Origin: an uncultured bacterium
GTDB lineage: Bacteria; Myxococcota_A; Polyangia; Polyangiales; Houyiibacteriaceae
DNA length: 33,802 nt
Direction of reading: 5' to 3'
Assembly (NCBI GenBank): GCA_937984275.1
Contig: CALJYC010000044.1
Location: forward strand, 1 to 33,802
Below, piece by piece: positions 1-5,615 of this stretch. Below the pieces are notes generated by a model that did no database searches, was not told where the DNA came from, and was given only the letters and a program-made list of their open reading frames with translations. How positions within the stretch are numbered: the first letter of the stretch is position 1; the number at the start of each line of letters is the position of its first letter. The position numbers were made by a program, and so were the translations under genes.

Positions 1-348
1 GACAAGTATGTGACACCCATCTACATGGGCCTCGGACTGCTCCCGTTTCCGGCGGAGCTCCACTACATCGTGGGCGAGCCGATCCGCTTGCCCTACGGCC
101 CCGAGGCTGCCGAGGATCGTGAAATCGTCGCGCAGCTCCACCGGCAGGTAGCGGAAGCCGCACAGAAGTTGATCGACCGAGGCCTCGAAGAGCGCAAGAT
201 CGCTGGCACTGGCACTGGCACTGGCACTGACACTGACACTGGCACTGACACTGACACTGGCACTGGCACTGGCACTGACACTGGCACTGGCACTGGCACT
301 GGCACTGACACTGACGCCGGCACCTCTCGGGATCGACTCGTGGTATAG
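1..348 (+). CDS. C-terminal part of a PlsC-like phospholipid/glycerol acyltransferase (5' end outside window)
   Basis: The reading frame is open from base 1, so the gene starts upstream; 115 residues are visible. The segment LPFPAELHYIVGEPI followed by an amphipathic helix with EDREIVAQLHRQV resembles the C-terminal end of lysophospholipid/diacylglycerol acyltransferases, where a strand reading 'h.y.vGePI' is followed by a terminal helix. The catalytic HxxxxD motif would lie upstream and cannot be checked. After the normal-looking end (GLEERK, about residue 64) the protein runs into 18 Gly-Thr or Asp-Thr dipeptides encoded by a hexanucleotide repeat, then stops. A GTG at position 10 is in frame but would remove the whole catalytic part, so it is not taken as the start. 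The family call is moderate because only the tail is visible. Confidence 0.6.
   Translation, partial: DKYVTPIYMGLGLLPFPAELHYIVGEPIRLPYGPEAAEDREIVAQLHRQVAEAAQKLIDRGLEERKIAGTGTGTGTDTDTGTDTDTGTGTGTDTGTGTGTGTDTDAGTSRDRLVV
205..312 (+). repeat. Hexanucleotide tandem repeat, 18 units of G(G/A)CACT
   Basis: Eighteen uninterrupted 6-bp units, GGCACT (12) or GACACT (6), lie in frame at the 3' end of the acyltransferase-like gene. They encode Gly-Thr or Asp-Thr. The only variation is a G/A transition at the second base, which switches Gly to Asp. Degenerate units (GACGCC, GGCACC) follow at 313-324. Because the unit is a multiple of three, copy-number change would lengthen or shorten the tail without a frameshift. 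Confidence 0.97.
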
Positions 349-929: not shown

Positions 930-2486
930 ATGCCAGACGAACCCAGAACGATGGCCGAGCGGCGCCCGATCTTGAGAGTCACGCAGCCGAGCGAGATGCC
1001 GGACGCCGGGCTCACCCTCGATGCGGACGTCGTGGTCATTGGTTCGGGCGCCGGAGGCGCGGTGACAGCCTACGAGCTGACACGGTCGGGAGCGAAAGTC
1101 GTCGTGCTGGAAGCAGGGCCGCACATCCCGTCCGGTCGGTTTCAGGAGCACGCCCCAACTGCGCTCGAGACCTTGTACGAGGACCATGGGAATCAGACGA
1201 ACACGACGGGCGACCTGCCGATCCTTCAAGGAAAGTGCGTTGGAGGTTCGACCGTCGTCAATGCCGCTGCGTGCTTCCGCGTGCCGGACCAGGTCTTGCA
1301 AAATTGGACCGAGGAGCACGGTCTCGACAATCTCTCGCCCCAGGCGCTGGCTCCCTACTTCGAACGAGTCGAGCGAAACCTCTCCGTTCATCAGAACCAG
1401 CCGCACGAGGTCAACTACAACGGGCGTCTGCTGATCGAAGGCGCGCAGAAGATCGGGATTTCGGCGGCTCCCATCTCTCGCAACATCAAGGATTGCGCGC
1501 TGACCGGGCACTGCGTCTCCGGGTGCAAGACCGATCGTAAGCAATCGATGCTGGTAACCTATCTGCCATGGGCGAGCGAGCTCGGCGCAACGATTTTGAG
1601 CGGCACGCGCGCTGAAACTTTCGAGATCAGCAACCGCCGCGTCACAGCGGTCAACGCGGTCGCCACCGATTCGAGTGGCAAGATGAAGCCGGTTCGAGTC
1701 GAGGCGGCTCTGGTCGTCGTGGCCGCCGGCGCGGTGCAGACCCCTCTCCTGTTTCAGAAGAACAGAATCGGAAACAGCAGCGGCCAGGTCGGGCACAACT
1801 TCGCGTGCCATCCGTCGCTTGCGGTGTTTGGCGAGCACGACAAAGAGGTCTACGCGTGGGTCGGCGCCACCCTGAGCGCGCAAGCGGGCGACATCGAGAA
1901 CCCCCTCAAAGGCGGGTACTTACTCGAGGCCGGGATGGTCGGCCCCGTCATCACCAGTAGTTGGATCGACGGCGGCATCGGCCGCGACTTCGTCGAGTTC
2001 ATGGAGAACTCCAAGAAGATGCAAGCTGCTGTCACGCTGATCCACGACCACAACGTCGGCCGCGTCTACCTCGAGGGCGATCGCAAGCGCATCGACTACG
2101 ACCTCGACGATCGCGACTTCGAATCGATGCGCGAGGCGCTGCGCGGGACGGCGCGAATCTACTTCGCGGCTGGGGCACACAGGGTGTATCTGCCCACGAC
2201 GCGCCGAACCACGATCGAAAGCGCGGAGCAAATCGACTCCGTGATCAACGGCCTGACGAACGGAAAGCACCGGTACCGCATGACGTCGTACCATCCGCAG
2301 GGCACGATGCGGATGGGCGCCGACCCCGCGAGAAGCGTGGTTGCACCGGACGGCCGCTGTCACGACCTCGACAACGTGTACGTCCCGGACGCAAGCCTGT
2401 TTCCGTCATCACTGCTCGTGAACCCGCAGGTCACCGTCTACGCGATGGCGAGCTACATCTCCGACCGGATCATGGCGCGCGGCTAG
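930..2486 (+). CDS. GMC-family FAD-dependent oxidoreductase
   Basis: This 518-residue flavoprotein has an N-terminal FAD-binding Rossmann motif (GSGAGG at 38-43, with an acidic residue closing the fold in VVLEAG) and the GMC signature GGSTVVNAA. The C-terminal GMC domain carries catalytic His455 (SYHPQGTMRMG) and Asn498 (NPQVTVYA). A cysteine cluster (GHCVSGCKTDRKQS) sits in the middle, as in bacterial alcohol/sugar GMC dehydrogenases. ATG 930 is used; an in-frame ATG at 951 is possible, and the frame is also open upstream but overlaps the previous gene. There is no signal peptide, which fits co-export with the Tat lipoprotein directly upstream. The substrate (alcohol, sugar or sterol) cannot be told. 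The electron acceptor is probably a cytochrome or quinone rather than oxygen, by analogy with gluconate dehydrogenases. Confidence 0.88.
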   Translation: MPDEPRTMAERRPILRVTQPSEMPDAGLTLDADVVVIGSGAGGAVTAYELTRSGAKVVVLEAGPHIPSGRFQEHAPTALETLYEDHGNQTNTTGDLPILQGKCVGGSTVVNAAACFRVPDQVLQNWTEEHGLDNLSPQALAPYFERVERNLSVHQNQPHEVNYNGRLLIEGAQKIGISAAPISRNIKDCALTGHCVSGCKTDRKQSMLVTYLPWASELGATILSGTRAETFEISNRRVTAVNAVATDSSGKMKPVRVEAALVVVAAGAVQTPLLFQKNRIGNSSGQVGHNFACHPSLAVFGEHDKEVYAWVGATLSAQAGDIENPLKGGYLLEAGMVGPVITSSWIDGGIGRDFVEFMENSKKMQAAVTLIHDHNVGRVYLEGDRKRIDYDLDDRDFESMREALRGTARIYFAAGAHRVYLPTTRRTTIESAEQIDSVINGLTNGKHRYRMTSYHPQGTMRMGADPARSVVAPDGRCHDLDNVYVPDASLFPSSLLVNPQVTVYAMASYISDRIMARG

Positions 2487-2900
2487 CTACTGCGTTTTTT
2501 GAACTCGGGCGAAGCACCAGATGCCGCCGTCGGCTTCGACGAGCTTCCAGCCCTCTGCACCGAGACCCGAGAACTGTGTCGTCATCGCGTCGGGTTTCTT
2601 GGCCGGACGGACGCACTTGTACTCCCACTTGTGCGAGCCCCATTTCCCGTGGCAGCCGTGGTGCGCCTTGCCCTTGCCGCAGTGGGCGCATGCCTTGCCC
2701 TGTTTGCAGTACGGGCAGGTCTTGCCCTCGGTGCAATGCGGACAGTCTTTGCCCGCCGCGCAATGCGGACAGTCGGAGCCCTGTGCACAGGTTTGACAAG
2801 ACGCGGCGTTGCCATCGGTCTGCGATTCGGCGGGAGTACCGCCAAAGGCGAGCCACATCACGCCAGCGGTGAGAACAGAAGCTAGAAGCACAGAACGCAT
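2487..2900 (-). CDS. Secreted Cys-rich repeat protein with a DUF4177-like C-terminus
   Basis: This 137-residue protein begins at ATG 2900 behind a strong Shine-Dalgarno (GAGGAGG). A signal peptide (hydrophobic core LLASVLTAGVMWLAF) is followed by five tandem nonapeptides of the form C-x-x-C-x-x-G-[KS]-x between about residues 35 and 79. A His/Cys/Gly-rich degenerate unit follows (HHGCHGKW). The last 50 residues (WEYKCVRP, then LGAEGWKLVEADGG, then WCFARV) resemble the small DUF4177-type fold. CxxC arrays usually bind zinc, iron or copper or form disulfides, and an exported metal-binding or redox-active protein is a reasonable inference. I do not recognise a characterised homologue. It lies downstream of trpF on the same strand but is separated by a palindromic repeat, so it is probably transcribed alone. 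Confidence 0.8.
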   Translation of the reverse strand: MRSVLLASVLTAGVMWLAFGGTPAESQTDGNAASCQTCAQGSDCPHCAAGKDCPHCTEGKTCPYCKQGKACAHCGKGKAHHGCHGKWGSHKWEYKCVRPAKKPDAMTTQFSGLGAEGWKLVEADGGIWCFARVQKTQ

Positions 2901-2940
2901 GAATCCTCCTCGAGTTGAAGCGAGCAGCCTAGCACGAACA

Positions 2941-2987
2941 ATTAACCCTTCTAAAAAGGGGTCTGACCCCTTTTTAGAAGGGTTAAT
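2941..2987. repeat. Perfect 47-bp palindrome (REP-like element)
   Basis: Two 23-nt arms (ATTAACCCTTCTAAAAAGGG continuing GTC) are exactly complementary around a single central T. The element lies between trpF and the Cys-rich gene, both on the minus strand, and overlaps the trpF stop codon (TAA at 2985-2983). As RNA it would form a very strong hairpin that could terminate transcription or protect the 3' end. A related element occurs at 33669-33727, which points to a dispersed palindromic repeat family rather than a gene-specific terminator. Confidence 0.93.
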
Positions 2988-3591
2988 TTTTGGCGGCGGT
3001 TATGAAGGCTTGGACTTGGGCGTGGTCTTTTTGACCGGGGGCCATTTCTACTCCGGAGGCTACGTCTACGCGGAAGGGGTTCACGGCGTGGATGGCTTCG
3101 GCGACATTGTCAGGGTTGAGACCTCCCGCCAGGGTCAGCTTCCGCTCCTTCGCGACCGCCGCTGCGATGTCCCAATCGAAGGTACGGCCGGTGCCGCCGG
3201 GCATGCCCGGCACGCTGGCATCAAGCAGGAGATGCTCGCCGGGATAGGTTCGGGCGAGCTCGATTGCGGAGCCGTCTTTCACGCCAATCGCTTTGTATGC
3301 ATTTGGAAGCAGCTCCGCCAGCAGCTCGGGAGGCTCCGCACCGTGCAACTGCGCCCATTGAATCCCGGTGTCGCGCAGGGTCTCGCGAATCTGCTCGAGG
3401 GTGAAATCGACGAAAACCCCGACCATGACGGCACGGTCGCGAGCGCCCTCAACGATCGCGCGGGCCGTCGGGACGTCCACACATCGAGGCGAGCCCGGCC
3501 AAAAGTTGAGACCGATCGCGTCGGCGCCTGCGTCGATGCAACGCACTGCGTCGTCGACCGTCGTTAGCCCGCAGATCTTGACCTCAACCAT
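2983..3591 (-). CDS. trpF: Phosphoribosylanthranilate isomerase
   Basis: TrpF catalyses the Amadori rearrangement of N-(5'-phosphoribosyl)anthranilate to CdRP in tryptophan synthesis. The 202-residue product has the family length and motifs: VKICGLT with catalytic Cys7, GLNFWPGSPR, WAQLHG, the catalytic-Asp strand LLLDAS (Asp124) and the phosphate-binding end LAGGLNPDNV followed by DVASGVE. ATG 3591 is chosen because MVEVKICG matches the normal N-terminus; the frame is open further upstream. No other trp gene is present, so trpF is detached from any trp operon here. The stop codon lies inside a dispersed palindrome, so the insertion may have reset the C-terminus (ending AAKN). It is divergent from korA, with 146 bp between the starts. 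Confidence 0.95.
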   Translation of the reverse strand: MVEVKICGLTTVDDAVRCIDAGADAIGLNFWPGSPRCVDVPTARAIVEGARDRAVMVGVFVDFTLEQIRETLRDTGIQWAQLHGAEPPELLAELLPNAYKAIGVKDGSAIELARTYPGEHLLLDASVPGMPGGTGRTFDWDIAAAVAKERKLTLAGGLNPDNVAEAIHAVNPFRVDVASGVEMAPGQKDHAQVQAFITAAKN

Positions 3592-3737
3592 ACCCCGAGG
3601 ATGCGCCGACAGTGTCTCATCGTCCAACCTCCCGATAACCACTTGCGGACCAGGGAACCCCGCCCTAGAACGCGTTCCAGTTTGGCCCGGAAGGACGGGC
3701 GTTACGGAGCCTGCGGGACTAGAATCGACAATCGAGC

Positions 3738-5615
3738 ATGGAACCATCTGCCGCTGCGCGCGTTCAGCCCAGTCCGCGTGAAACCCTAGACTCCGTCATC
3801 ATCCGATTTGCCGGCGACTCCGGCGACGGGATGCAACTCACCGGTAGCCAATTCACCACTGCTACGGCCGACGCCGGAAACGATCTTTCGACGTTTCCAG
3901 ACTTCCCCGCGGAGATCCGCGCGCCGGCCGGCACGACCTACGGCGTGTCCGGCTACCAAATCCACTTCGCGTCGCACGACGTACAAACACCCGGGGATGC
4001 CCCCGATGTCCTCGTGGCGATGAACCCTGCCGCGCTCAAGGTCAACAGCGAGGTGCTCAAGACAGGTGGCTTGCTCGTGGTCAACAGCGGGGCATTCACC
4101 GCGAACAATCTCAAGAAGGCCGGCTACGAGGTGAATCCGCTCGAAGACGGCTCGCTCGATCGCTTTCGTGTATTGGCGCTCGACGTCACGAAGATGACCC
4201 TCGACGCAGTGAAAGAGGTCGGCCTCGGTTCCAAAGACGCCAACCGCTGCAAGAACATGTGGACGTTGGGCCTCATGTATTGGCTCTTCGGCCGCGAGCG
4301 CGATCAAACGGTTGGCTGGCTCAAGAACAAATTCGCGAAGCGCCCCAAGCTCGCTGAGGCAAACATCGCAGCGCTCAACGCCGGCCACATCTACGGCGAG
4401 AACGCGGAATTGCCCCACGGAATCAACGCGTATCAGGTGCCGTCGGCGAACCTGGCGCCGGGCGAATACCGCAATATCAGCGGCAACGAAGCGACCGCGT
4501 GGGGCCTAGTCACGGGCGCGAGGCTTGCCGGCCTCGAGGTCATGTACGGTTCCTACCCGATCACGCCGGCGTCGAGCCTGTTGCACAACTTGGCGCGTCT
4601 CAAGCACTTTGGCGTGACGACATTCCAGGCCGAAGACGAGATCGCTGCCGTCGCGGCGGCTGTCGGAGCAAGCTTCGGTGGCTCGATCGGCGTCACGGGC
4701 ACCTCCGGTCCGGGCGTCGCATTGAAGTCCGAAGCGATTGGGGTGGCGATGATGGCGGAGCTGCCATTGGTCATCGTCAACGTCCAGCGTGGCGGGCCTT
4801 CGACCGGGCTTCCGACGAAGACCGAACAGTCCGATCTCTTCCAGGCGGTCTGGGGGCGCAACGGCGACGCACCACTCGTGGTGCTGGCCGCCGCAACGCC
4901 GGGCGACTGCTACTACATGGCGATCGAAGCGATTCGCGTCGCGACGACCTACATGACGCCGGTCATCTTGCTCACCGACGGCTATCTCGCCAACAGTGCA
5001 GAGCCTTGGCTACTGCCCGACGTCGACGCGCTCAAGCCATTCCCGGTCGCGTTCCACCAGGAGCCCGAGGGCTTCCACCCCTTCTCGCGGGACGAGGAAA
5101 CTCTAGCCCGCGTGTGGCCCGTGCCGGGGACGCCCGGTCTCGAACACCGCATCGGAGGGCTCGAGAAGGACCGGAGCACTGGCCATATTTCCTACGACCC
5201 CCACAACCACCACCTGATGACCAGCGTTCGGCACGACAAGATCGCGGGAATCGCGAGAGACGTCGCACCCGCGAAGGTCGACCAGGGGGACAACCACGGC
5301 GACTTACTGGTCGTCGGCTGGGGATCGACGTACGGCTCGATCAGACAGGCGGTAAGCGTGCTGCGCGAGAAAGGCCACCAGGTATCGCACCTGCACCTTC
5401 GCAACATCTGGCCCCTTCCCGAGGGGCTTGGAAACTTGCTCGATTCGTTCCATACCGTCCTGGTCCCTGAGCTCAACAACGGACAGCTGGTGAAGCTGCT
5501 TCGCGCCGAGTACCCGGTCGACGCCGTGAGCTTGCCCCGAGTGACAGGGCTGCCCTTCCGTATTGGCGGCCTCATCCAAGCGATGGAAGAGCGTCTGCAG
5601 GGGAGCGCGATATGA
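3738..5615 (+). CDS. korA: 2-oxoacid:ferredoxin oxidoreductase, fused gamma-alpha subunit
   Basis: This 625-residue protein fuses the gamma domain (about residues 20-190, beginning IIRFAGDSGDGMQLTG) to the alpha/pyrimidine-binding domain (from about 245). The alpha part carries YPITPAS, the conserved Glu region FQAEDEIAA, TGTSGPG and VQRGGPSTGLPTK. With KorB it forms a TPP and iron-sulfur enzyme that oxidatively decarboxylates a 2-oxoacid, most likely 2-oxoglutarate, to the acyl-CoA while reducing ferredoxin. ATG 3738 is the first plausible start; a TAGAAT hexamer at 3720-3725 could be a -10 but no good -35 is seen. Its stop overlaps the korB start (ATGA). This two-gene layout is the KorAB type found in many aerobes as well as anaerobes. 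2-oxoglutarate versus pyruvate specificity is inferred from overall resemblance. Confidence 0.92.
   Translation: MEPSAAARVQPSPRETLDSVIIRFAGDSGDGMQLTGSQFTTATADAGNDLSTFPDFPAEIRAPAGTTYGVSGYQIHFASHDVQTPGDAPDVLVAMNPAALKVNSEVLKTGGLLVVNSGAFTANNLKKAGYEVNPLEDGSLDRFRVLALDVTKMTLDAVKEVGLGSKDANRCKNMWTLGLMYWLFGRERDQTVGWLKNKFAKRPKLAEANIAALNAGHIYGENAELPHGINAYQVPSANLAPGEYRNISGNEATAWGLVTGARLAGLEVMYGSYPITPASSLLHNLARLKHFGVTTFQAEDEIAAVAAAVGASFGGSIGVTGTSGPGVALKSEAIGVAMMAELPLVIVNVQRGGPSTGLPTKTEQSDLFQAVWGRNGDAPLVVLAAATPGDCYYMAIEAIRVATTYMTPVILLTDGYLANSAEPWLLPDVDALKPFPVAFHQEPEGFHPFSRDEETLARVWPVPGTPGLEHRIGGLEKDRSTGHISYDPHNHHLMTSVRHDKIAGIARDVAPAKVDQGDNHGDLLVVGWGSTYGSIRQAVSVLREKGHQVSHLHLRNIWPLPEGLGNLLDSFHTVLVPELNNGQLVKLLRAEYPVDAVSLPRVTGLPFRIGGLIQAMEERLQGSAI

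Follow-up and report, generated by a model that had tools for sequence, protein, structure and literature searches.

Genetic organization of the cysteine-repeat locus

In the window (the whole stretch of 33,802 nucleotides that was analysed), the gene under study occupies positions 2487-2900 of the minus strand, with its stop codon at 2487-2489, and encodes a protein of 137 amino acids. As judged from sequence comparison, this open reading frame is a genuine gene, since substitutions concentrate at third codon positions, indels between orthologues keep the frame, a promoter-like motif is conserved upstream and orthologues occur in 16 of the 19 genomes of the genus. The third-position excess is exemplified by the orthologue L002, which differs from the window gene at 8, 12 and 36 sites in codon positions 1, 2 and 3, respectively. 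The promoter-like sequence TGCTAGGCT, which resembles an extended -10 element, lies at positions 2926-2934 (minus strand), 26-34 bases 5' of the ATG, and is kept in orthologues; a Shine-Dalgarno sequence (GAGGAGG) is located between it and the ATG. A TGCTAGnCT-like motif and a Shine-Dalgarno sequence were likewise found 5' of the ATG in the orthologues examined, and, as read by eye, TGCTAGGCT would act as a promoter.

The N terminus (residues 1-27, MRSVLLASVLTAGVMWLAFGGTPAESQ; positions 2820-2900, minus strand) resembles a signal peptide without a lipobox cysteine, with a positively charged start, about 19 hydrophobic residues and small residues at AES|Q, where a cleavage site was also assigned by eye; orthologues L003 and L005 carry VxA|D at the equivalent position. 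This start is in keeping with an exported protein, as the sequence-only reading had claimed. It is followed on the same strand by five units of 27 bp encoding an array of CxxCxxGKx nonapeptides (residues 35-79; positions 2664-2798), by a spacer rich in histidine and cysteine, HHGCHGKWGSH (residues 80-90; positions 2631-2663), and by a C-terminal Sp36/DUF4177-like beta-alpha-beta-beta domain (residues 91-137; positions 2490-2630). The protein has 13 cysteines in total, ten of them in the units, one in the spacer (Cys83) and two in the domain (Cys96 and Cys129).

A GMC oxidoreductase gene (positions 930-2486, plus strand, start at 930 inferred; Pfam GMC_oxred_N, 2.7e-48, and GMC_oxred_C, 3.6e-27) converges on the cysteine-repeat gene so that the two stop codons directly abut. 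It was present at 13 of 15 orthologous loci, being missing at L031 and L034, where an acyltransferase gene is adjacent instead. Upstream of the cysteine-repeat gene and on the same strand lies trpF, encoding phosphoribosylanthranilate isomerase (positions 2983-3747, minus strand; Pfam PRAI, 4.4e-43), which was seen at 12 of the 15 loci, is absent from L033 and L037, and at L034 falls where the contig ends. Because the cysteine-repeat gene is preceded by a conserved motif of its own and its neighbours are missing at some loci, we rejected an operon-based function and read none from the neighbourhood.

Several other features of this region were recorded. A long palindrome around AAAGGGGTCTGACCCCTTT lies at positions 2942-2989, between trpF and the cysteine-repeat gene; its 19-base core occurs in 95 copies in this genome, several of them paired 41 bases apart, and in 0-6 copies in 18 relatives, and it is a REP-like element expanded specifically in this genome. 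At positions 203-313, a CTGGCA six-base tandem repeat of 18.5 copies encodes the Gly/Thr/Asp tail that ends the open reading frame at 10-348 (plus strand), and the acyltransferase gene beside the L031 and L034 orthologues matches this repetitive stretch. An exported-looking protein with a twin-arginine-like start (MAYRLYRRTFTK) and no Pfam match is encoded at positions 370-921, adjoining the GMC oxidoreductase gene, a place which we take to resemble that of the small subunit of membrane-bound GMC dehydrogenases.

The cysteine-repeat array

The units read, in order, CQTCAQGSD, CPHCAAGKD, CPHCTEGKT, CPYCKQGKA and CAHCGKGKA. They are arranged head-to-tail with a period of nine residues and cysteines at unit positions 1 and 4, which places the array cysteines at residues 35, 38, 44, 47, 53, 56, 62, 65, 71 and 74. 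The five tandem nonapeptides with ten regularly spaced cysteines that had been noticed in the sequence were borne out by the open reading frame, by TRF, which detected a DNA tandem repeat of period 27 over the array, and by 200,000 composition-preserving shuffles of the mature protein, which produced at most three consecutive period-9 CxxC units versus the five observed; the strict CxxCxxGK form is confined to units 2-5, unit 1 being CQTCAQGS.

Across the 58 units of the 16 orthologues, positions 2-3 are mostly Pro-His (P in 34, H in 37), with Pro-His not maintained in the first unit, or Pro in most last units. Unit positions 5, 6 and 9 vary, while the unit cysteines are kept with mixed TGC and TGT codons, the exceptions being C47 replaced by glycine in L014 and a shortened unit, CPC, in L010. 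The linker of every orthologue is rich in both cysteine and histidine (2-12 Cys and 2-11 His over 24-71 residues), short forms such as DGKACAHCGKGHPHHGHWGAHK included. The array was modelled by AlphaFold at low confidence, with no confident structure, and had no convincing sequence relative among solved structures. The haem motif CxxCH does not occur in any of the 16 orthologues, so a c-type cytochrome was rejected.

The number of units changes within one orthologous group

Searches covered one set of 58 genomes and one of 34 from the family, most genomes being fragmented metagenome-assembled genomes (MAGs), and the three genomes of the genus in which no orthologue was found are 79-81% complete. 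Named records of the genus are themselves MAGs, mostly labelled "Deltaproteobacteria" or "Myxococcales bacterium", and one SG8_38. Five CxxC units are present in the window protein, L002, L004 and L005, six in L003, L006, L007 and L008, two in L010-L013, L015 and L016, and one in L009 and L014, the second unit of L014 having lost one cysteine. In a tree built on the neighbouring 2-oxoacid:ferredoxin oxidoreductase subunit, L032 (six units) and L039 (one unit) are fully supported sisters that stand five units apart, and L035 (two units) shares a clade with the window and L031 (five units each); these placements imply that unit number has changed repeatedly. Collapse of the arrays during assembly was considered unlikely, because the units are not identical in sequence and two-unit arrays lie on 650-kb contigs; the one-unit L039, from a fragmented MAG, is the possible case. 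These data show that unit number varies through gain and loss of 27-bp repeats in one orthologous group.

Conservation of repeat number, which the sequence-only reading had put forward for checking, was thus not found, as orthologues carry one, two, five or six CxxC units and numbers are unlike even between sister species. Conservation of the cysteines themselves held in part: those within units are kept, but unit number ranges from 1 to 6 and the homologues seen beyond the orthologous group are repeat-less. All 16 orthologues retain a minimum of one CxxC pair, as well as histidine in the spacer.

In order to delimit the distribution of the array, a DNA pattern for CPHCxxGxxxCPHC, strict enough that diverged units would escape it, was run over 379 genomes from 235 genera of the phylum, and its sole hits lay in this gene, in four genomes that belong to the genus. 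Beyond the phylum, the search took in plasmids, viral contigs and a named-genome scan that picks up close relatives, and the array motif was found in no viral contig or plasmid. Among the genera examined, the array-bearing orthologous group is found only in this one. A literature search for the motif, spelled CXXCXXGK and in similar ways, found none. A PHROGs match of unknown function spanning the array (E 0.0016) and Pfam matches of orthologues to Opy2, BSD2_CRD and DUF7895 (0.006-0.009) were taken to reflect cysteine composition.

The C-terminal domain belongs to a wider exported family

AlphaFold2 modelled the domain with a mean pLDDT of 89.2 from a 41-row alignment, as a strand (residues 3-9 in domain numbering), a helix (15-27) and two further strands (31-36 and 39-46), with the two domain cysteines in the first and last strands. 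No convincing sequence relative of the domain was found among solved structures, and Foldseek returned generic matches only (best E 0.15). Both cysteines are kept in 48 of the 49 domains compared and are jointly lost in the exception, L106, which makes a disulfide between them probable. At L106 (positions 1544-1693), the domain reads RWEYKAID...GYFKRP and the lipobox-like N terminus is retained.

An order-wide profile search matched the domain family in 44 of 184 genomes and in 17 of 84 genera. The window protein carries the features of the exported family across the order, namely a signal peptide or lipobox followed by W-x-Y-x-C ... GW[EKR][LM] ... CF, and is a member of this family of small exported proteins and lipoproteins with an Sp36/DUF4177-like domain. 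Nearly every genome of the genus encodes a second, repeat-less paralogue with a signal peptide followed by WQYQC...LWCFKRP, whose neighbours are conserved within the genus only, none being common to loci outside it. Outside the genus, family N termini often show, by inspection, a lipobox-like GC (ILGC, VGC). The relatives seen outside the orthologous group have neither repeats nor a linker rich in cysteine and histidine.

Comparison with known families

The NCBIfam model Sp36_fam (NF053529) scored 22.9 bits (E 6e-5) with the window domain and 19.8 bits with the whole protein, against a cut-off of 50, and, at E<=0.01, matched 29 of the 41 domains compared (best 2.4e-11). In the window domain, residues 4-37 align to positions 1-35 of the model, and the likeness includes the WEY...GW signature; besides its score below the cut-off, the window protein differs in having an export signal, the domain cysteine pair and the cysteine array. 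The archaeal sP36 of Methanosarcina mazei, at 61 amino acids, has no such cysteine arm. It is targeted to the cytoplasmic membrane, where it brings about inhibition of the ammonium transporter AmtB1 (PMC10714827), a role that is not carried over to the exported protein of the window. A Pfam scan of the window protein gave no match, DUF4177 (PF13783) included; orthologues match that family weakly over the corresponding region, the best at 15.7 bits against a gathering cut-off of 25, which falls short of membership. The earlier description of the domain as DUF4177-like therefore stands as a remote resemblance to Sp36/DUF4177 at scores below the cut-offs, and the window protein itself has no Pfam match. 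No well-described family was matched above its curated cut-off in Pfam or NCBIfam.

Within the same phylum, the repeats of myxobacterial surface proteins (TIGR02232, and TIGR04201 of TraA) are likewise tandem cysteine-rich units of exported proteins, but TIGR02232 spans 38 positions versus 9 in the window unit, and the window protein lacks a C-terminal sorting tag. The NCBIfam scan found no TIGR02232 in the window protein, though the profile does match other proteins of the same genome. The CxxCxGxG zinc finger of DnaJ also repeats CxxC followed by glycine; the window units, which read CxxCxxGK in a nine-residue head-to-tail arrangement, lack the first glycine of DnaJ and belong to an exported protein, and with no Pfam match a DnaJ-type zinc finger was discarded. 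Bacterial metallothioneins are short metal-binding chains rich in cysteine and histidine and, to our knowledge, those known are cytosolic. The window protein resembles them in concept, differs in its regular nonapeptide period and attached domain, and matched no metallothionein profile in Pfam.

Possible role of the arm

A periplasmic metal-binding or redox role had been suggested from the sequence, and a metal or redox role of the arm is plausible. Our best reading, tentative and somewhat short of an even chance, is that of an extracytoplasmic Cys/His metal-binding arm joined to an exported Sp36/DUF4177-like domain. The two domain cysteines would form a disulfide after export and staple the small domain, which would tether or present the arm; outside the cytoplasm, the arm would bind metal ions of the soft or borderline class (Zn, Cu(I), Cd). 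Two thiolates would come from each CxxC pair, with sites completed by neighbouring pairs or histidines, so that repeat number would set capacity and not an exact fold. Metal coordination fits best because the arm is rich in cysteine and histidine in all orthologues. No metal transporter or regulator adjoins the cysteine-repeat gene. That the protein is an extracytoplasmic metal binder of a new kind, with capacity given by copies of a 27-bp coding repeat and an Sp36-like tether, arisen within a single genus, is a stronger claim that we regard as rather improbable.

The main rival is a disulfide-bonded or structural arm, in which exported CxxC units would be oxidised to intra- or interchain disulfides and form a stiff stalk of variable length presenting the domain. 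Such a spacer would tolerate a changing unit number, and the cysteine-rich tandem repeats of the myxobacterial TraA, proposed to form a rigid stalk (PMC3325183), offer a precedent. Moreover, a search of six genomes of the genus gave five to eight DsbA-domain matches in each; with several DsbA-family proteins in the genus, exported CxxC pairs may be oxidised, which makes disulfides a serious alternative. However, a stalk has no need for histidine-rich units and spacer, orthologues with one or two units are too short for one, and the TIGR02232 repeat, present elsewhere in the genome, is not matched in the window protein. We consider the stalk unlikely on balance.

Less probable still is that the linker is a drifting coding minisatellite, an expansion that is tolerated but contributes little itself, the domain doing the work. 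The range of 1-6 units, the jump between the sister species L032 and L039 and the array-less paralogue in nearly every genome of the genus are what such drift would give, but the cysteine columns are almost perfectly retained across orthologues despite codon variation, and none of the 16 lacks a CxxC pair or histidine in the spacer. The lowest ranked is a thiol redox arm, a somewhat poorer candidate than drift, whose CPHC units would be exchangeable dithiol/disulfide pairs serving, outside the cytoplasm, as a buffer or relay for oxidising equivalents: CPHC also forms the active site of E. coli DsbA and Pro-His prevails in the units, but no thioredoxin fold surrounds CPHC in an array modelled without confident structure, and the first unit and most last units depart from the motif.

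Returning to the metal-binding arm, the orthologue series with one, two, five and six Cys-pair units would be a natural test of whether metal capacity or only arm length follows unit number. The protein also shows that the Sp36/DUF4177 superfamily has a branch that is exported and whose domain probably contains a disulfide.

As a separate observation, an open frame of 677 amino acids in one genome of the genus (G000:C348:6770-8524) contains three consecutive DSBA-domain matches, and each of the five further genomes searched within the genus has a frame of 671-677 amino acids with DSBA matches.
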